Origin: an uncultured Hyphomicrobiales bacterium
GTDB lineage: Bacteria > Pseudomonadota > Alphaproteobacteria > Rhizobiales > Beijerinckiaceae
Assembly: GCA_903902915.1 (NCBI GenBank)
Contig: CAIUWR010000032.1
Coordinates: 1-64,000 of the forward strand
DNA length: 64,000 nt
Direction of reading: 5' to 3'
Below, piece by piece: positions 37,854-45,561 of this stretch. The first letter of the stretch is position 1. The number at the start of each line of letters is the position of its first letter. The notes under the pieces were generated by a model. That model searched no databases. It worked only from the letters and a program-made list of their open reading frames with translations, and was not told the DNA's origin. The position numbers and the translations under genes were made by a program.

Positions 37854-37882
37854 TGATCCGCCACACTCCCGGCCCCGTAACA
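37854..37882 (+). promoter_or_regulatory. ECF11/RpoE-like promoter of the photolyase operon
   Basis: TGATCC (37854-37859), an exact 18-base spacer and TAACA (37878-37882) match the consensus I know for the Rhodobacter RpoE-ChrR regulon (TGATCC, about 18 bases, TAAGA). The predicted start near 37889 leaves about 33 bases before the ATG and excludes the upstream in-frame ATG at 37886. Confidence 0.7.
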
Positions 37883-37921
37883 GCGATGACGCTCGGTCAA
37901 GCCTGGAGGCTGGTGAAGGTG

Positions 37922-39394
37922 ATGAAAGCGACTGCGCAGAGTGGACCCGCTATCGTCTGGTTGCGGGACGACCTGCGGCTCGCTGATCAACCGGCGCTGG
38001 CGGCGGCGGCAGCCAGCGGCTCGCCGATTCTCTGCATCTACGTTTTCGACGAGGAAAGCCCGGGGCTGCGCCCCCTTGGCGGGGCCTCGCGCTGGTGGCT
38101 GCATCACAGCCTCGCCGCTCTGGCCGCCTCGCTGGAGGCGATTGGCGGGCGGCTCGACATTCTCCACGGACGCGCGGGCGAACTGGTTCCGGCGGTGGCG
38201 CGCGCTGCTGGCGCCGCCTGCGCCTTCTGGACGAGGCGTTACGAGGCCGCGACCATCGCCATCGACACCGATGTGAAGGCGCAGCTTGCGGCTGACGGCC
38301 TGCGTGTGGAGAGCTTCAACGGCCAGCTCCTGTTCGAGCCCTGGACCATCCGCACCAAGATGGGCGAATATTATCGGGTCTTCACGCCCTTCTGGCGCAG
38401 CTGCCTCGCCCTGCCCGACCCCGGCCAGCCCACCCCCGCCCCGCGCAAGCTCATGGGCGCGGACTGGCCGGTACATGCGCCCGCCCGCGTCGATCTCGAT
38501 CAGTTGGGCCTGCTGCCGACCAAGCCTGACTGGGCGAGCGGGCTGCGCGCGGCGTGGACGCCCGGCGAAGCTGGGGCCGTGGCGCGGCTGGCGGGTTTCC
38601 TCGACGACGGGATCGCCGTCTACGCCAGCCATCGCGACAGGCCGGACATTCCCGCCACCTCGCGCCTGTCGCCCCATTTGCGGTTTGGCGAAATCAGCGC
38701 GCGGCAGGCGCTGGCTGCGGCGCGGCATGCGGGTGATTCGGGCAAAGCGCCCCCCCGCGATGTGGAGAAATTCGCCGCCGAACTCGGCTGGCGCGAATTT
38801 TCCTACCATCTGCTGTTCCACAACCCCGATCTGGCGCGAAAGAACTTTCAACCGCGCTTCGACGCCTTCCCCTGGCGCACCCCCTCCAGCGAGGAGCTGA
38901 CCGCGTGGCGGATGGGCCGCACCGGCTACCCCATCGTGGACGCTGGCATGCGCGAGTTATGGCGGACCGGAACCATGCACAACCGGGTGCGCATGATCGC
39001 CGCCTCCTTCCTCGTGAAGGATTTCATGGCGGATTGGCGCCTTGGCGAAGACTGGTTCTGGGATACGCTCTGCGACGCCGACCCCGCCAGCAATGCGGCG
39101 AGCTGGCAATGGGTGGCGGGCTCGGGCGCTGACGCGGCCCCCTATTTCCGCGTCTTCAACCCGATCCTGCAAGGTTTGAAGTTCGATCCGTCGGGGGCCT
39201 ATGTGCGCACCCATGTGCCCGAGCTCGCCGCGCTGCCCGACGAATGGATCCACAAGCCCTGGGAGGCGCCGCCGCTCGTGTTGAAGGCGGTCGGCGTCGC
39301 CCTGCCCCGCGACTATCCCCTGCCCATCGTCGATCACGGCAAGGCCCGGGACCGGGCGCTCGCGGCTTTCGGCGAAATGAAGTCGGCCACGTGA
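37922..39394 (+). CDS. phrB: Deoxyribodipyrimidine photolyase (cryptochrome/photolyase family)
   Basis: The 490-residue flavoprotein has the N-terminal antenna domain (IVWLRDDLRLADQPAL) and the FAD domain with SRLSPHLRFGEIS, WREFSYHLLFHNPDL, GRTGYPIVDAGMRELWRTGTMHNRVRM and WQWVAGSGADAAPYFRVFNP. These residues bind FAD and the pyrimidine dimer. It repairs UV lesions using blue light. ATG 37922 is preceded by GAAGGTG and fits the mapped-like promoter. It heads the run phrB - FAD oxidoreductase - DUF1365 - cfa, the singlet-oxygen regulon. Confidence 0.95.
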   Translation: MKATAQSGPAIVWLRDDLRLADQPALAAAAASGSPILCIYVFDEESPGLRPLGGASRWWLHHSLAALAASLEAIGGRLDILHGRAGELVPAVARAAGAACAFWTRRYEAATIAIDTDVKAQLAADGLRVESFNGQLLFEPWTIRTKMGEYYRVFTPFWRSCLALPDPGQPTPAPRKLMGADWPVHAPARVDLDQLGLLPTKPDWASGLRAAWTPGEAGAVARLAGFLDDGIAVYASHRDRPDIPATSRLSPHLRFGEISARQALAAARHAGDSGKAPPRDVEKFAAELGWREFSYHLLFHNPDLARKNFQPRFDAFPWRTPSSEELTAWRMGRTGYPIVDAGMRELWRTGTMHNRVRMIAASFLVKDFMADWRLGEDWFWDTLCDADPASNAASWQWVAGSGADAAPYFRVFNPILQGLKFDPSGAYVRTHVPELAALPDEWIHKPWEAPPLVLKAVGVALPRDYPLPIVDHGKARDRALAAFGEMKSAT

Positions 39395-39509
39395 TCACGA
39401 AACAGTGGGGCGGGCGCCCTCTCGCAAAGCTCAGTCTTGGCGGCTATTCATGGACTTGGGTGGAAAACCGCCCCTGCGATTCCCTCCTTCGTTCCGCCTG
39501 CGAGACCTC

Positions 39510-40814
39510 ATGCGCATAGCCATCATCGGATCGGGCATTTCTGGCATGGGCGCCGCGCTGGCCCTGTCCGAGGCTGGCCATGAGATCACGCTCTTCGAGA
39601 AAGATCTGCGCCCCGGCGGCCATGCGGCCACCGTGGATATCGAGCATTCCGGCCATAAAATCGCGGTCGACACCGGCTTCATCGTCTACAATACGCTGAA
39701 TTATCCCAACTTCACGCCCATGCTGGACTGGTTGGGGGTGGCGACGCAGGCCTCCGAAATGAGCTTCTCGGTGTCGGCCGACCGGGGCCGCTTCGAGTGG
39801 TGCGGGCGCGATAGCGGGGGTGTGCTGCGCTCCATCTTCGCCCAACGCAGCAACCTGCTCTCGCCGGGCTTTCTGCATATGCTGATGGAGGTCGGGCGTT
39901 TCCAGACGCAGGCGCGCGGCGATCTGCGCGAGGCGACCATCGGCGAGGGCAGCCTTGGCGACTACCTGACGCGCCATCGTTTCAGCGCCCGCCTGCGCGA
40001 CGACTATCTCGTGCCCATGGGCGCCGCGATCTGGTCAACCTCGCCCGCCAAGATGCTGGAATTCCCTGCCGCCAGCTTCATCTCCTTCTTCGACAACCAT
40101 TGCCTGCTGCAATGGAAGCGGCCGCAGTGGCGAACCGTGACGGGCGGCAGCCGCTCCTATGTGCTGGCGATCATGCGTCGGCTCGGCGACAGCCTGCGCC
40201 TTGGCGCCTGCGTCACCGAACTGCATCGCGATGCAAGCGGGGTCGAAGTGGTGGACGCGGATGGCCGCCGCGAGCGTTTCGATCACGCGGTCATCGCCGC
40301 TCACGCGCCGGACGCGCTCGCCATGCTGGCGGATGCGGACGCGAACGAAGTGGATGTGCTGGGCGCCTGCTCCTATTCGGCCAATGACGTGGTCCTGCAT
40401 CGCGACCCGCGCCTCATGCCAAAGCGCAAGGACGCCTGGGCCGCGTGGAACTTCCTGCGCGAAGGCGCGGACGACACGCGCAAGGTCGCTGTCACCTATT
40501 GGATGAACGTTTTGCAGGGCATCGACCCGGCCCGTCCGGTGTTCGTGACGCTCAATCCGCCCTTCGAGCCGGATCCGGCGCTCATATTCGCGCGTTTCAG
40601 CTACGATCATCCCCAGTTCGATCTTGCGGCTCTTGAGGCGCGCGACAAACTCGGAGACATTCAGGGGCGCCGCAGGACGTGGTTCTGCGGGGCCTGGACC
40701 GGGCATGGCTTCCACGAAGACGGGCTGGTTTCAGGACTGGGCGTCGCGGCTTCGCTTGGGGCCATGGCGCCTTGGGCGACTTCGGACGAGGCCCTGCGGA
40801 CAGCCGCAGAATGA
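39510..40814 (+). CDS. FAD-dependent amine-oxidase-like oxidoreductase of the cfa cluster
   Basis: The 434-residue protein starts with a dinucleotide-binding fold (MRIAIIGSGISGMGAALALSEAGHEITLFEKD, RPGGHAAT) and ends WFCGAWTGHGFHEDGLVSGLGVAAS, the second FAD contact of the NAD(P)/FAD oxidoreductase family often annotated as a predicted NAD/FAD-binding protein. Homologues regularly neighbour DUF1365 and cfa genes and may act on membrane fatty acids or lipids, but the reaction is not established. It is 115 bases after phrB and 16 before DUF1365. The start was chosen at the beginning of the Rossmann strand. Confidence 0.85.
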   Translation: MRIAIIGSGISGMGAALALSEAGHEITLFEKDLRPGGHAATVDIEHSGHKIAVDTGFIVYNTLNYPNFTPMLDWLGVATQASEMSFSVSADRGRFEWCGRDSGGVLRSIFAQRSNLLSPGFLHMLMEVGRFQTQARGDLREATIGEGSLGDYLTRHRFSARLRDDYLVPMGAAIWSTSPAKMLEFPAASFISFFDNHCLLQWKRPQWRTVTGGSRSYVLAIMRRLGDSLRLGACVTELHRDASGVEVVDADGRRERFDHAVIAAHAPDALAMLADADANEVDVLGACSYSANDVVLHRDPRLMPKRKDAWAAWNFLREGADDTRKVAVTYWMNVLQGIDPARPVFVTLNPPFEPDPALIFARFSYDHPQFDLAALEARDKLGDIQGRRRTWFCGAWTGHGFHEDGLVSGLGVAASLGAMAPWATSDEALRTAAE

Positions 40815-40830
40815 GGACAAGATCAAGCCT

Positions 40831-41619
40831 ATGAACGAACAGCTGTTTCCGCCGCCAGCCGACGCCGCCTCGCTTTATGTGGGCGACGTCATGCATGCGC
40901 GGCTGAAGCCTTTCGGTCATCGCTTCACCTATCGCGTCTTCTCACTGTTGCTGGATCTTGACCGTTTGGCGGAGGCCGGGGGCCGCTCGGCGTTGTTTTC
41001 CGTAGGGCGCTTCAACCTCGTGTCGTTTTCGCCCCAGGATCATGGCCCGCGAGACGGCGGCGACCTTCGCGCTCATGTGGCGGACCTGCTGGCGGCGCAG
41101 GGAATTGCGACGCCCGCGCGCATTCTGTTGCTGGCCTATCCGCGCGTTCTGGGTTTCACCTTCAACCCGCTCGCGGTCTATTACTGCTATGATGCGCAAG
41201 AGCGGCTCACCGCCCTGATCTACGAGGTGCGCAATACATTCGGCGGCATCCATCCCTATGTGCTGCCGGTGAGCGAAGGCGCCCTTGACGCACGCGGGCT
41301 GCGGCAGGAACAGGCCAAGCTCTTCTATGTCTCGCCCTTCCTGCATATGGACCATCGTTACTTCTTCCGCATGCGTCCGCCCGGCGACACAGTGCATATC
41401 CGAATTCTGGAACGTGACGCGCAAGACCCTGTGCTCGCCGCCACCTTTCAGGGGGCGCGCCAGCCACTCACCACAGCCACCCTCGCCCGCGCCTGCCTCG
41501 CCCTGCCCTTCATGACCTTCAAGGTCATGGCCGCCATTCATTGGCAGGCTTTGAAGCTTTGGTTGAAGGGCGCCAAATATATCCCCGACGACGCCAGCGT
41601 CGTTCGCCCGAACCCCTAG
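40831..41619 (+). CDS. DUF1365 domain-containing protein
   Basis: The 262-residue protein matches DUF1365: MHARLKPFGHRFTYRVFSLLLDLDRL, LLAYPRVLGFTFNPLAVYYCYD, VRNTFGGIHPYV and YVSPFLHMDHRYFFRM. Homologues in the Rhodobacter sphaeroides RpoE regulon are needed for making furan fatty acids, to my knowledge together with the neighbouring cfa-like methyltransferase. It starts 16 bases after the FAD oxidoreductase stop and ends 14 bases before cfa. No membrane segment is certain. Confidence 0.9.
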   Translation: MNEQLFPPPADAASLYVGDVMHARLKPFGHRFTYRVFSLLLDLDRLAEAGGRSALFSVGRFNLVSFSPQDHGPRDGGDLRAHVADLLAAQGIATPARILLLAYPRVLGFTFNPLAVYYCYDAQERLTALIYEVRNTFGGIHPYVLPVSEGALDARGLRQEQAKLFYVSPFLHMDHRYFFRMRPPGDTVHIRILERDAQDPVLAATFQGARQPLTTATLARACLALPFMTFKVMAAIHWQALKLWLKGAKYIPDDASVVRPNP

Positions 41620-41633
41620 GATCGCCAGAAGCC

Positions 41634-42872
41634 ATGCCCGACGATAACGCCGCCTATCCGGCTGTGGATCTTGATAGCGCCAACGTTGCGCGCGAATCCG
41701 CGCGCTATCCTTTCGCCGTCCGACAGGCGTTGAAACTGGCGACCCATATCGAGGCTGGTCAGCTTGACGTGCGCATGCCCGATGGCCGCGCCTTCCGCAT
41801 TGTGGGCGACAAGCCGGGGCCGCAGGCCATGATGGTGATCCGGGATCTGAAATTCGCCAGCACGTTGTCGCAAGGCGAGCTTGGAATCGCCGAAGCCTTT
41901 TTGCGCGGACAATGGGACAGCCCCGACCTTACGGCGTTTCTGGAATTGTTCTGCGTCAATCAGCCGTTTCTCGAAAGACTGATGGAGGGCAAACCGCTGA
42001 TCCGCCTCTTCCAGATGGTGCGCCACTGGATGAACCGGAACACGAAGGCCGGATCGCGTCGCAACATCCACGCCCATTATGATCTGGGCAACGCATTCTA
42101 CGGCGCCTGGCTCGACGACTCGATGACCTATTCCTCGGCCCTGTTCGACGAGGGGAAGGATCTGGTCGGCGGGCAGCGGCGCAAATATGCGGCGCTGGCG
42201 CAGGCCTGCGCCATCAGGCCGGACCATCATGTGCTGGAGATCGGCTGCGGCTGGGGCGGTTTCGCCGAATATGCCGCGCGCGAGATCGGCTGCAAGGTCA
42301 CGGGCCTGACGATCAGTCAGGAGCAATATGATTTCGCCTGCAAGCGCATCTTCGAGGCGGGCCTGAACGAGAAGGTCGATCTGAAGTTGCAGGACTATCG
42401 CGACGAGAAGGGCGCCTATGACCGCATCGCCTCCATCGAAATGTTCGAGGCGGTGGGCGAGGAATATTGGCCGACCTATTTCCAGCAACTGCGCGAGCGG
42501 CTGAAGCCGGGCGGCTTTGCGGGCGTTCAGGTCATCACCATCGACGAGCGCCTGTTTCCACGCTATCGGCGCGAGCTGGATTTCATCCGCCGCTATGTCT
42601 TTCCCGGCGGCATGTTGCCCACGGGGACCATCATGCGCGACCTTGGCGCGAAGGTAGGCCTGTCGCTGCATGACGAGCGCAACTTCGGGCTGGATTACGC
42701 CCAGACGCTGGTGCTGTGGCGCGAGCGGTTCCGCGCCGCTTGGCCGACCCTGACGCCGCTCGGCTTCGACGAGCGGTTCCGGCGCCTGTGGGAGTATTAT
42801 CTGGCCTATTGCGAGGCGGGGTTCCGGGCGGGGACCATCGACGTGCGGCAGATGGTCTTCTCGCGGAGCTGA
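41634..42872 (+). CDS. cfa: Cyclopropane-fatty-acyl-phospholipid synthase family methyltransferase
   Basis: The 412-residue protein has an N-terminal lipid-binding domain and a SAM domain with VLEIGCGWGGFAEYAAREIGCKVTGLTISQEQ, IASIEMFEAVGEEYW and FIRRYVFPGGMLPT. It methylates unsaturated acyl chains in membrane phospholipids using SAM. In the RpoE-ChrR regulon such enzymes modify lipids under singlet oxygen. It is the last gene of the phrB run and ends three bases from the convergent SDR stop. Confidence 0.95.
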   Translation: MPDDNAAYPAVDLDSANVARESARYPFAVRQALKLATHIEAGQLDVRMPDGRAFRIVGDKPGPQAMMVIRDLKFASTLSQGELGIAEAFLRGQWDSPDLTAFLELFCVNQPFLERLMEGKPLIRLFQMVRHWMNRNTKAGSRRNIHAHYDLGNAFYGAWLDDSMTYSSALFDEGKDLVGGQRRKYAALAQACAIRPDHHVLEIGCGWGGFAEYAAREIGCKVTGLTISQEQYDFACKRIFEAGLNEKVDLKLQDYRDEKGAYDRIASIEMFEAVGEEYWPTYFQQLRERLKPGGFAGVQVITIDERLFPRYRRELDFIRRYVFPGGMLPTGTIMRDLGAKVGLSLHDERNFGLDYAQTLVLWRERFRAAWPTLTPLGFDERFRRLWEYYLAYCEAGFRAGTIDVRQMVFSRS

Positions 42873-42875
42873 TCT

Positions 42876-43658
42876 TCAGCCCCGCCCCGTGCCCTTGCCG
42901 ACCAGCCGGAAGAACAGGGGATAGGGCAAAAGCCGCAGCGCCTTCAGCAACCAGACCATGCGCCGGGGGAAGGCCACTTCGAAACGGTTGGAGGCCAGCC
43001 CGTCGCAGATGCGCCTTGCCGCGTCGTCGGCCTCGATCACGAAGGGCATGGGGAAATCGTTCTTCGCGGTGAGCGGCGTATGGACAAAGCCGGGACAGAT
43101 CACCTGAACGCCCACGCCCAGCGGCTCCAGCCCAAATCGTAGCGACTCGCACATAGAGATCAGCGCCACCTTTGAAGACCCATAAGCGGCCGCCCTTGGC
43201 AGGCCCACATAGCCCGCCACCGAGGCGACGACGGCCACTTGGCCCCTGCCCCGCGCGATCATGCGCGGCAGCAGCGGCTCCAGCGCGTTCAGCGTGCCGC
43301 CAAGGTTCACGTCATAGGTCTGGCGAAAGGCGTCGCCCGCCCATTGGCCGGAATCATCGGGAAAGAACGTGCCCACATTCAGCATGGCGAGGGCGATGGG
43401 CTGTCCGCCCGCCTCGATCTCCGCCACGACCTGGGCCAGCCCCGCCCGGTCGGTCACGTCGCCGACAAATGGCAGGATGGTCAGCCCCTGCGCGCCCGCC
43501 TCGGCGGCGAGCTTGTCCAGCTCGTCAGCCCGCCGCGCGGTGGCCGCGACCCGCCAACCACGGCGCGCCAACTCGAGGGCGACCGCCCGGCCGATGCCGG
43601 AGCTCGCGCCCGTGATCCATGCCAGACCATCGGACGGCGATGTGCGGGTCGTCTGCAT
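42876..43658 (-). CDS. Short-chain dehydrogenase/reductase
   Basis: The 260-residue SDR has the cofactor motif TGASSGIGRA, NVG in place of NNAG, and the catalytic S-Y-K set (ASVAGYVGLPRAAAYGSSK). A hydrophobic or basic C-terminal tail (FPRRMVWLLKALRLLPYPLFFRLV) may touch the membrane. The substrate is unknown. It lies 27 bases after chrR and is probably driven by the chrR promoter. An SDR also belongs to the Rhodobacter cluster of this regulon. Confidence 0.88.
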   Translation of the reverse strand: MQTTRTSPSDGLAWITGASSGIGRAVALELARRGWRVAATARRADELDKLAAEAGAQGLTILPFVGDVTDRAGLAQVVAEIEAGGQPIALAMLNVGTFFPDDSGQWAGDAFRQTYDVNLGGTLNALEPLLPRMIARGRGQVAVVASVAGYVGLPRAAAYGSSKVALISMCESLRFGLEPLGVGVQVICPGFVHTPLTAKNDFPMPFVIEADDAARRICDGLASNRFEVAFPRRMVWLLKALRLLPYPLFFRLVGKGTGRG

Positions 43659-43685
43659 GGCGGTCTCCCCGGGCTATAGGCCCCG

Positions 43686-44351
43686 TCAGTGCGCCCGGCC
43701 GAAGAAGCGGTCCAGGATACGGCCGACCGGGCCGGTGAGATGCAGCGGCGCGTCCGTCACGGCGAAGCAGATGCAATCCTCCCCCTCGCCCGTTATCGGA
43801 CGATGGTCGAGATCAGCTTCCGCAATCGCGATGTCGCCACGGCCATAGCGGCCCGTGACATCGGAAAAGGCGCCCTGAAGAACAAGCGTCACTTCGGAAC
43901 CCTCGTGGGTATGCGAGGGAATGCGGCGACCGCCGCCAATCCAAAGAAGCGAAGCTTCCCCCCGCTCGCTCTCGCTGATGCGATATTCGCGAACGCCCGG
44001 CAGCTTCTTGCGCCACTTGAGGTCCGAGACGTCGGAGCCGACGAGGCGCAGAAGCGGGGCTGGCAAGATGGAGGATGGCGCGGGCGCAGCCGCAGGGCTG
44101 GCGCTGGCGAAAATCGCCGCAAGCCGAGCGTCGCGGCCGCTGAGCGGACTGGGCGCGGCGCGCGCGACTTCTCCGGCGGCGAGATCCTCAAGCGCCGCAA
44201 CAAACCGGCGGTTTTGCGGATTGAGGAGAAGATGGGAAGCGACGAGGGCGTGGGTCGCCCGGTCGAGAGCGCCGACGCAATAGGAAGCGAGAAGGGCGTC
44301 GAGCGGCTTGATCGTGTCTTGGGGATGCGCAGGCTGGTGCATAGATGACAT
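43686..44351 (-). CDS. chrR: ChrR-family anti-sigma factor with cupin domain (zinc-site cysteines missing)
   Basis: The 221-residue protein aligns with Rhodobacter ChrR. The N-terminal anti-sigma domain (LDALLASYCVGALDRATHALVASHLLLNPQNRRF) precedes a cupin domain with HTHEGSEVTLVLQGAFSD and ADLDHRP, where all metal ligands (His, His, Glu, His) are kept. In known ChrR the anti-sigma zinc site reads HxxxCxxC; here it is HxxxNxxN (His40, Asn44, Asn47). No sigma factor gene lies upstream, where rpoE normally is; instead divergent cysK follows. The start at 44351 has AAGAG upstream. Promoter, neighbours and cupin all indicate a singlet-oxygen or lipid-peroxide sensor. Confidence 0.85.
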   Translation of the reverse strand: MSSMHQPAHPQDTIKPLDALLASYCVGALDRATHALVASHLLLNPQNRRFVAALEDLAAGEVARAAPSPLSGRDARLAAIFASASPAAAPAPSSILPAPLLRLVGSDVSDLKWRKKLPGVREYRISESERGEASLLWIGGGRRIPSHTHEGSEVTLVLQGAFSDVTGRYGRGDIAIAEADLDHRPITGEGEDCICFAVTDAPLHLTGPVGRILDRFFGRAH

Positions 44352-44390
44352 TGAAAGCTCTTGGCGGCTCAGGTGAGACGAAAGCGAACA

Positions 44391-44419
44391 GATTACGGAC
44401 GGCTTTCGACATTGGATCA
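44391..44419 (-). promoter_or_regulatory. ECF11/RpoE-like promoter of chrR
   Basis: On the minus strand TGATCC (44419-44414), an exact 18-base spacer and TAATC (44395-44391) mirror the phrB promoter in box and spacer. The predicted start again lies about 33 bases before the ATG. This implies that chrR-SDR and phrB-cfa share one ECF sigma factor. Confidence 0.65.
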
Positions 44420-44529: not shown

Positions 44530-45561
44530 ATGTTTGACCAAAAAGACGTCATCGGGGCCATTGGAAGCACCCCGATGATCAAACTCCGCCGCGCTTCGGA
44601 GGAGACGGGCTGCACGATTCTGGGCAAGGCCGAGTTCATGAATCCCGGCGGCTCCGTGAAAGATCGCGCTGCGCTCGCCATCGTGCGGGACGCTGTGGCG
44701 CGCGGCCAGCTCAAGCCGGGCGGCGTCATCGTCGAGGGTACGGCGGGGAATACGGGCATCGGGCTGGCGCTGGTCGCCAACGCCATGGGCTTTCGCACGG
44801 TCATCGTCATTCCCGACACCCAGTCGCAGGAAAAGAAGGACATGCTGCGGCTGCAGGGCGCCGAGCTGATCGAAGTTCCGGCTGCGCCTTACTCCAACCC
44901 GAACAATTACGTGAAGCTCTCAGGGCGCCTCGCCGAGCGGCTTGCGCGCGAATGTCCTGAAGGGGCCATCTGGGCGAACCAGTTCGACAATGTCGCCAAC
45001 CGTGCGGGCCATCAGGCCACCACGGGACCAGAAATCTGGGACCAGACCGGCGGCAAGATCGACGGCTTCACCTGCGCGGTCGGCACTGGCGGCACGCTGG
45101 CGGGTGTGGGCATGGCGCTCAAGGCGCGCAATCCCGCCATCAAGATCGCGCTGGCGGATCCCATGGGGGCGGCGCTTTACGCCTGGTATTCGCGCGGCGA
45201 ACTTAAGGCCGAGGGGTCCTCGATCACCGAAGGCATCGGCCAGGGCCGCGTCACCGCCAATCTGGTGGATGCGCCCATCGACATGGCCTTCCAGATCTCG
45301 GACGAAGAGGCCCTTCCCATCGTCTTCGATCTGGCGGAACATGAGGGCCTGCTGCTCGGCGGATCGTCGGGCGTCAACGTGGCTGGCGCCATCAGGCTCG
45401 CAAAAGCGCTGGGGCCAGGCCATACGATCGCGACGATCCTGTGCGATTCGGGCGCCCGCTACGCCTCGAAACTCTATAATCCGGCCTTTCTGGCGTCGAA
45501 GAATCTCCCGGCGCCGGGTTGGCTGCTGCGCAAGTCCACGATAAATCCAGATCTCGTATGA
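44530..45561 (+). CDS. cysK: Cysteine synthase A (O-acetylserine sulfhydrylase)
   Basis: The 343-residue PLP enzyme has IGSTPMIKL, the Schiff-base Lys44 in NPGGSVKDRAAL, the substrate loop EGTAGNTGIGLALV and the PLP phosphate loop GTGGTLAGVG. It forms cysteine from O-acetylserine and sulfide. It is somewhat longer than E. coli CysK, with an extended C-terminus. sseA follows 18 bases later, so the two sulfur genes are likely one operon. Confidence 0.94.
   Translation: MFDQKDVIGAIGSTPMIKLRRASEETGCTILGKAEFMNPGGSVKDRAALAIVRDAVARGQLKPGGVIVEGTAGNTGIGLALVANAMGFRTVIVIPDTQSQEKKDMLRLQGAELIEVPAAPYSNPNNYVKLSGRLAERLARECPEGAIWANQFDNVANRAGHQATTGPEIWDQTGGKIDGFTCAVGTGGTLAGVGMALKARNPAIKIALADPMGAALYAWYSRGELKAEGSSITEGIGQGRVTANLVDAPIDMAFQISDEEALPIVFDLAEHEGLLLGGSSGVNVAGAIRLAKALGPGHTIATILCDSGARYASKLYNPAFLASKNLPAPGWLLRKSTINPDLV

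Follow-up and report, generated by a model that had tools for sequence, protein, structure and literature searches.

Anti-sigma and effector genes of a putative split RpoE-ChrR-like (ECF11) switch in a Hyphomicrobiales genome

Two convergent operons and their promoter-like sites

The window considered here, i.e. the whole stretch of DNA that was analysed, is 64 kb of contig CAIUWR010000032.1 from an uncultured Hyphomicrobiales bacterium, whose genome (G000) consists of 3.68 Mb in 102 contigs and is 99.91% complete. The window contains two convergent operons, phrB-ufaD-ufaO-ufaM on the forward strand and chrR-SDR (short-chain dehydrogenase) on the reverse strand, each headed by a promoter-like site. 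An original prediction, made from the sequence of the window, had described them as a complete singlet-oxygen regulon of the RpoE-ChrR type (group ECF11 of the extracytoplasmic function, or ECF, sigma factors) that lacks an adjacent sigma gene. Profile matches bear out both the convergent operons and the RpoE-ChrR-type genes that had been named (ChrR, photolyase, oxidoreductase, DUF1365 and Cfa-like genes), and the end points chosen for the region, 37854 and 44419, coincide with two strict promoter-like sites.

The chrR gene (43686..44351, reverse strand) begins with an ATG at 44351. Its product scores 152.6 bits against the curated TIGR02451 profile, whose cut-off is 124.5, and thus belongs to the ChrR family. 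Like ChrR of Rhodobacter sphaeroides (E 3.3e-38), it has an N-terminal anti-sigma domain (ASD) and a zinc-cupin domain, and an AlphaFold2 (AF2) model of the protein has 2q1z as its top Foldseek match (2.5e-16). The second gene of the operon, encoding the SDR, occupies 42876..43658 (reverse strand; PF00106, 4.7e-43). Upstream of chrR lie an ECF11-type promoter-like site, TGATCC-N16-CGTA (44394..44419, reverse strand), which ends 43 nt before the ATG, and then the divergent cysK (44530..45561, forward strand; NF007989, 553.7 bits). As had been predicted, there is no adjoining sigma gene.

A second site of the same form (37854..37879, forward strand) ends 43 nt before the likely start of phrB. 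The phrB gene (37922..39394, forward strand; likely start 37922 in a frame open from 37778) encodes a photolyase (PF03441, 1.3e-85), whose class is not settled because the NCBIfam matches fall below their cut-offs. Three more genes follow on the same strand: a ufaD-like gene for a fatty acyl desaturase dependent on nicotinamide and flavin adenine dinucleotides (NAD/FAD) (39510..40814; frame from 39405, likely start 39510; flavin oxidoreductase PF01593, 8.1e-22), a ufaO-like gene for a DUF1365 protein (40828..41619; frame from 40624; PF07103, 1.9e-79), and a ufaM/cfa-like gene for a fatty acyl methyltransferase dependent on S-adenosylmethionine (SAM) (41634..42872; frame from 41541; PF02353, 1.1e-76), the starts of the last two having been counted by hand.

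Here and below, papers are cited for the excerpts that were available. According to Lemke 2020 (PMC7380195), UfaM methylates fatty acyl chains with SAM, and NAD-FAD and DUF1365 domains are present in UfaD and UfaO, respectively; in Rhodopseudomonas palustris the ufa genes are arranged in the order D-O-M (RPA2571-2569; PMC7380195). Because its domains and D-O-M gene order fit, the forward operon is best named phrB-ufaD-ufaO-ufaM, a photolyase gene followed by predicted furan-fatty-acid genes whose Ufa identity is assigned by domains and order rather than by Ufa sequence comparison. Furan fatty acids have been tied to ChrR turnover under singlet oxygen (PMC7380195; Donohue 2019, PMC6852236). No photosynthetic reaction-centre genes were found in the genome of the window, and thus singlet oxygen would need other sensitizers.

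The unlinked sigma gene and the split lineage

The genome contains five Sigma70_r2 matches: one of rpoD size, two of rpoH size and two ECFs. One of these ECFs, on contig C6 (44364-44936), has R. sphaeroides RpoE as its best solved relative (E 5.5e-44; the next, SigK, reaches 1.3e-18), and a search of the genome with its sequence finds nothing but itself at 1e-10. ChrR above the cut-off is present in a single copy, on a different contig. Thus an RpoE-like sigma factor is encoded elsewhere, which was one of the two possibilities given in the original prediction, and a search of the genome for chrR copies and ECF11-type sigmas finds one of each; the rpoE-chrR pair that would have explained the regulation differently was looked for in this genome and not found. 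Assignment of the C6 sigma to ECF11 is based on its closest solved relative, RpoE, and on the promoter core TGATCC/CGTA rather than on published ECF11 models.

The second ECF, on contig C33, adjoins a PhyR gene (PhyR by Pfam) and is taken for EcfG by this neighbourhood. A third, ECF-like frame of 177 aa with a PhyR-type region 2 is located on contig C95 (C95:123526; locus L302:646-1179, reverse strand); it was found by a region-4 search and missed by the Sigma70_r2 search. The existence of these two genes raises the possibility that the operons of the window are run by another ECF. This is very unlikely, given that the motif core matches that found before paired rpoE-chrR operons, that the RpoE relative is the C6 sigma and not the C33 or C95 product (blastp of the C95 frame against the C6 sigma gives E 2.1), and that EcfG sites begin with GGAAC (PMC6180224). 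The excerpt of that paper, on Sinorhizobium meliloti ECFs, lists no ECF11. The C95 frame overlaps a 135-aa frame (L302:249-656, reverse strand) with no Pfam family and a hydrophobic end, and the two may encode an ECF and its membrane-bound anti-sigma. Other region-4 matches were set aside: C61:3267 is a fragment at a contig edge, and those on C40 and C39 are LuxR-type regulators.

To place the arrangement among relatives, ChrR and its closest sigma were tabulated in 121 genomes, comprising that of the window and 120 relatives. TIGR02451 matches at E 0.001 in 93 of these, 79 of them above the cut-off; the 79 were taken together with G041, G044 and G079 (weaker or cut matches), and 11 genomes with only weak matches, mostly to the cupin part, were left out of the pair table. 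The two genes are separated ("split") in 49 genomes, that of the window included, and form an adjacent pair in 32; one genome has chrR only (G013), two have the sigma only (G016 and G017), and 37 have neither. No genome with both forms was seen among the 121. The missing neighbour noted in the original prediction is therefore real but not peculiar to this genome; instead, it marks a lineage. Within the genus of the window (G001-G050), some species are split and others paired, none being seen with both, which suggests exclusion or replacement.

Named genomes and loci give a similar picture. In nine with a split chrR locus (two Roseibium, Labrenzia, Stappia, Pannonibacter, Salinarimonas, Chthonobacter and two Rhizobium), a single sigma match at 1e-30 is present in every case, outside the fetched chrR locus. 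Across 43 named loci, chrR mostly has cysK divergent and an SDR gene behind it, often with convergent phrB/ufa genes. These loci and the 121 genomes are not independent sets because several share sequence (for example, L040 and G027).

In the sigma tree a single branch parts split from paired forms (bootstrap 99; Shimodaira-Hasegawa approximate likelihood ratio test, SH-aLRT, 83), and the same is true of the ChrR tree (SH-aLRT 100 in a quick search without bootstrap), from which rows shorter than 180 aa were dropped (G036, G041, G044, G111 and G116). Among the paired-type rows, that of R. sphaeroides RpoE lies nearest to the split sigmas, and its branch is long. These results bear on the simplest account, namely that the regulon is of the usual Rhodobacter RpoE-ChrR kind, and that its sigma and chrR genes were parted by a trivial rearrangement in this genome or appear so because a contig is missing. 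Such an account would fit the gene set and the promoter core, which are those of the classical system, but it is extremely unlikely: the genome is nearly complete, the split form recurs in the 49 genomes, including the single-contig G070 (chrR and sigma at 2.904 and 4.482 Mb) and G112 (2.482 and 3.493 Mb), where the two genes are more than 1 Mb apart, and one branch divides the two forms in both trees.

Despite this separation, sigma and ChrR have changed together. In a mirror-tree analysis of 35 of the 49 split genomes (14 being dropped for want of a suitable CysK or because of a short ChrR), sigma and ChrR distances correlate with r 0.94, compared with 0.80 for ChrR and CysK, its physical neighbour. 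The partial correlation of sigma and ChrR given CysK is 0.84, and the maximum in 1000 permutations is 0.47. Comparison of the sequences thus establishes that the two proteins co-diverge although their genes are unlinked.

The split sigmas share other features. At the position aligned with K38 of RpoE, a lysine that we take to be important for ChrR binding (PMC6852236 was searched for K38 without a match), 29 of 32 paired sigmas have K or R, whereas 6 of the 51 split or sigma-only genomes have K. In 50 of these 51 genomes, one conserved gene is divergent from the sigma gene (on C6 in the genome of the window; L038:7107-7745, forward strand); 46 of the cases were counted by a script rule and 4, with overlapping stop-to-stop frames, were read from coordinates, and the one miss, G047, is near a contig edge. 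The gene is also present in 8 of the 9 named genomes, and the start of its protein looks secreted by eye. Pfam gives it no family at E 0.001, and a tentative identification as IalB was dropped.

Placement of the motif and loss of the ASD zinc cysteines

Two forms of the promoter motif were searched, a strict one, TGATC(C/T)(A/G)-N15-CGTA, and a looser one, TGATC-N17-20-TA in the window and TGATC-N18/19-TA upstream of orthologues. In the 64-kb window the strict motif matches only twice, at 37854-37879 (forward) and 44419-44394 (reverse). The looser motif occurs 15 times in the window, with 8.3 expected, and 3 of 100 shuffles reach 15; as evidence on its own it was rejected. The two sites of the window gain weight, however, because the motif is conserved before chrR orthologues. 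It precedes chrR in 46/48 split genomes (shuffle mean 1.05, maximum 4), in 40/43 named loci and in 0/32 paired genomes. Before the sigma gene, where 300 bp upstream were searched, the distribution is reversed, with 0/49 in split and 27/32 in paired genomes.

A weight matrix agrees, finding the motif before chrR in 45/48 split and 0/32 paired genomes and before the sigma in 0/49 split and 27/32 paired genomes; for the 49 split sigma upstreams, none scores >=13, and the best score, 8.2, lies below the maximum of 10.9 for shuffled sequence. The C and G that precede TA, although outside the search pattern, are fixed in 45/45 aligned sites, and split chrR genes share this core with paired rpoE-chrR operons. 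Neither cysK (0/40 split genomes) nor the divergent neighbour of the sigma gene (0/51 split or sigma-only genomes) has a motif of its own pointing toward it.

Candidate targets beyond the locus were sought from strict sites in six diverse split genomes, in which 30 of 40 such sites were fetched and examined by tblastn. They precede chrR in 4 genomes, phrB in 3, ufaD in 1 and rpoH-like genes in 5 of the 6, the rpoH-like matches beginning within ~120 nt of the site; in G112 and G114 an unfetched site carries the sequence seen before chrR. In the genome of the window, an rpoH gene on C1 (C1:43500-46500) has a one-mismatch site (L256:1638-1664, reverse strand; score 13.6) 62 nt before its start. 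With the sigma gene on another contig and rpoH-like genes as candidate members, the word "complete" in the original prediction was too strong.

For comparison, 41 strict sites occur in eight members of the family that lack a full ChrR or a close sigma, and none of the 30 fetched is by chrR, phrB, ufaD or rpoH-like genes, with one weak SDR match; around the DUF1365 gene of G069, which has no such system, a strict site was not found. A regulon defined by the motif alone was rejected, as the number of strict sites in a genome does not tell whether the system is present. As judged from these sequence counts, the motif itself is common by chance; its placement is not. Two strict sites elsewhere in the genome of the window are not claimed as targets: C17:57642, behind the end of one gene, faces a convergent frame, and C95:93405 is 101 nt before a frame resembling polyprenyl synthetase by eye. 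In G028 (L225) and G070 (L223), strict sites stand before frames resembling nadA and ribA by eye, which may be chance.

The zinc ligands of Rhodobacter ChrR are H6, H31, C35 and C38 in the ASD and H141, H143, E147 and H177 in the cupin domain (PMC6852236). The cupin ligands (HHEH) are retained in the window ChrR, in 47/49 split ChrRs (two being truncated), in 32/32 paired ones and in those of 43/43 named loci. The ASD cysteines are not. Where R. sphaeroides has H31, C35 and C38, the window protein has H40, N44 and N47, with no histidine at the aligned N-terminal position; the zinc anti-sigma (ZAS) ligand pattern H-x24-H-x3-C-x2-C is absent, and H-x3-N-x2-N stands in its place. Zinc cysteines are found in the ASD of 0/48 readable split ChrRs versus 27/30 readable paired ones (H-C-C). 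All 48 split proteins keep H31; position 35 is K, R, S, N, T or A, position 38 is N, S, G or A, and the H6 column is His in 1/48 split and 27/30 paired proteins. These counts omit G036, whose ChrR is cut at a contig end, and G111 and G116, in which the ASD is outside the hit range. The 43 named loci agree with the split genomes on the retained H31 and the cysteine loss. Thus the protein recognized in the original prediction is indeed of ChrR type, but it differs from the Rhodobacter type in having an anti-sigma domain without zinc cysteines.

Such a domain might no longer act on sigma at all. The split ChrR would then be a cupin-type sensor or enzyme within the regulon, and the orphan sigma would be controlled otherwise, through its own transcription or its divergent neighbour. 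The ASD zinc is required for inhibition of sigma in R. sphaeroides (PMC6852236), and its cysteines are missing from all 48 readable split proteins; the scarcity of lysine at the K38-aligned position also favours this idea. Nevertheless, it is judged unlikely. The ASD is conserved, with L20, G27, L29, H40, V51 and E55 invariant in 35 aligned split-type proteins, and AF2, which is blind to metals, models it as helices with a per-residue confidence (pLDDT) of 87-94 over residues 21-60. ChrR co-diverges with the sigma beyond CysK, and chrR is the best conserved of the motif-bearing genes. In addition, RseA and RskA have ASDs that do not rely on zinc (PMC6852236, PMC7406223), and ECF groups with mixed zinc and non-zinc ASDs, as well as possible orphan anti-sigmas, are described in PMC7406223.

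A proposed split switch and known systems

On the reading preferred here, the anti-sigma gene and the effector genes in the window would be one half of a split RpoE-ChrR-like (ECF11) switch whose sigma is encoded on C6. The zinc-less N-terminal domain of ChrR would hold the C6 sigma, and under photo-oxidative stress the zinc-cupin domain, as in Rhodobacter, would trigger release or turnover of ChrR. The freed sigma could then fire the TGATCC-N16-CGTA promoters of phrB-ufaDOM, chrR-SDR and probably rpoH, and phrB-ufaDOM would supply furan fatty acids, on which ChrR turnover depends in Rhodobacter. The absence of a motif before the sigma gene points to a sigma that is not autoregulated; because of it, the classical loop, in which sigma induces both sigma and anti-sigma, would be rewired so that only negative feedback by way of the anti-sigma is left. 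Binding of sigma by the zinc-less ASD, sensing by the cupin domain, the purely negative loop, and promoter activity and dynamics are predictions from these sequence comparisons.

It is probably correct, as the core of this reading has it, that this is an ECF11 variant whose sigma, unlinked and not autoregulated, is held by a domain free of zinc, and that sensing falls to the cupin domain. A broader proposition is offered more tentatively and may well not hold: that an order-wide ECF11 lineage senses singlet oxygen without an ASD zinc finger, wholly through the zinc-cupin domain (or through furan-fatty-acid products), and that its sigma induces the inhibitor but not itself, so that what was a self-amplifying switch now acts as a homeostat. 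The Rhodobacter response to singlet oxygen depends on the cupin domain, and tert-butyl hydroperoxide (t-BOOH) acts in cells without an intact cupin domain (PMC6852236). Responses to singlet oxygen or t-BOOH involve E147 and H177 (PMC6852236), and therefore the two signals are not cleanly split there. The ASD zinc site has been proposed as a key part of singlet-oxygen sensing (Chabert 2019, PMC6432622).

Several observations weigh against the split switch as drawn. Since the ASD zinc is needed in R. sphaeroides, inhibition by a ChrR without it might be weak or absent. Three paired ChrRs (G065, G067 and G091; loci L148, L117 and L145) also lack the ASD cysteines, and thus zinc loss and splitting are separable. 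The motif is missing before 2/48 split and 3/43 named chrR genes, and phrB has it in just 8 of 18 split loci (fetched loci holding phrB) and 8 of 18 named loci. Fisher values for motif placement are <1e-15 but ignore shared ancestry. Strict sites are similarly frequent with the system (40 in 6 genomes) and without it (41 in 8), so a single site proves nothing. Finally, many of the 121 genomes are drafts, including the chrR-only G013 and the sigma-only G016 and G017.

The split form offers a natural test of the switch mechanism. Removing zinc in Rhodobacter does not tell sensing from structure, because the zinc there, as we read it, serves folding and the binding of sigma as well; a ChrR lineage that naturally lacks the ASD zinc but retains the cupin site and targets of the same kinds separates the two. 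The lineage predicts either singlet-oxygen sensing without the ASD zinc or else a changed signal, and both outcomes would be informative. It would also represent an ECF circuit, present in dozens of genomes, from which the sigma's positive loop is absent and in which the inhibitor's negative loop is kept. As a warning, anti-sigma searches confined to the neighbourhood of the sigma gene will miss split pairs. No earlier description of a split ECF11 form was found in the excerpts of the literature searched, and priority is not certain.

Among known systems, the closest is RpoE-ChrR of R. sphaeroides (ECF11), which shares the RpoE-like sigma, a ChrR composed of ASD and zinc-cupin domain, the motif core, and the presence behind the motif of rpoH-like genes and of genes for photolyase and furan fatty acids. 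Unlike that system, the split form has sigma and anti-sigma unlinked, no ASD zinc cysteines, and the motif before chrR only. RseA and RskA, which are membrane proteins, belong to other ECF groups, whereas the protein here is a ChrR with a cupin domain; what the window ChrR shares with these class I anti-sigmas is an ASD without a zinc site (PMC6852236, PMC7406223). The forward operon resembles the UfaM-UfaD-UfaO pathway (RSP2144, RSP1091 and RSP1090 of R. sphaeroides; RPA2569-2571 of R. palustris) in its domains and in the D-O-M order of R. palustris, a likeness of domains and order alone, and it differs in that the genes follow phrB within one operon.

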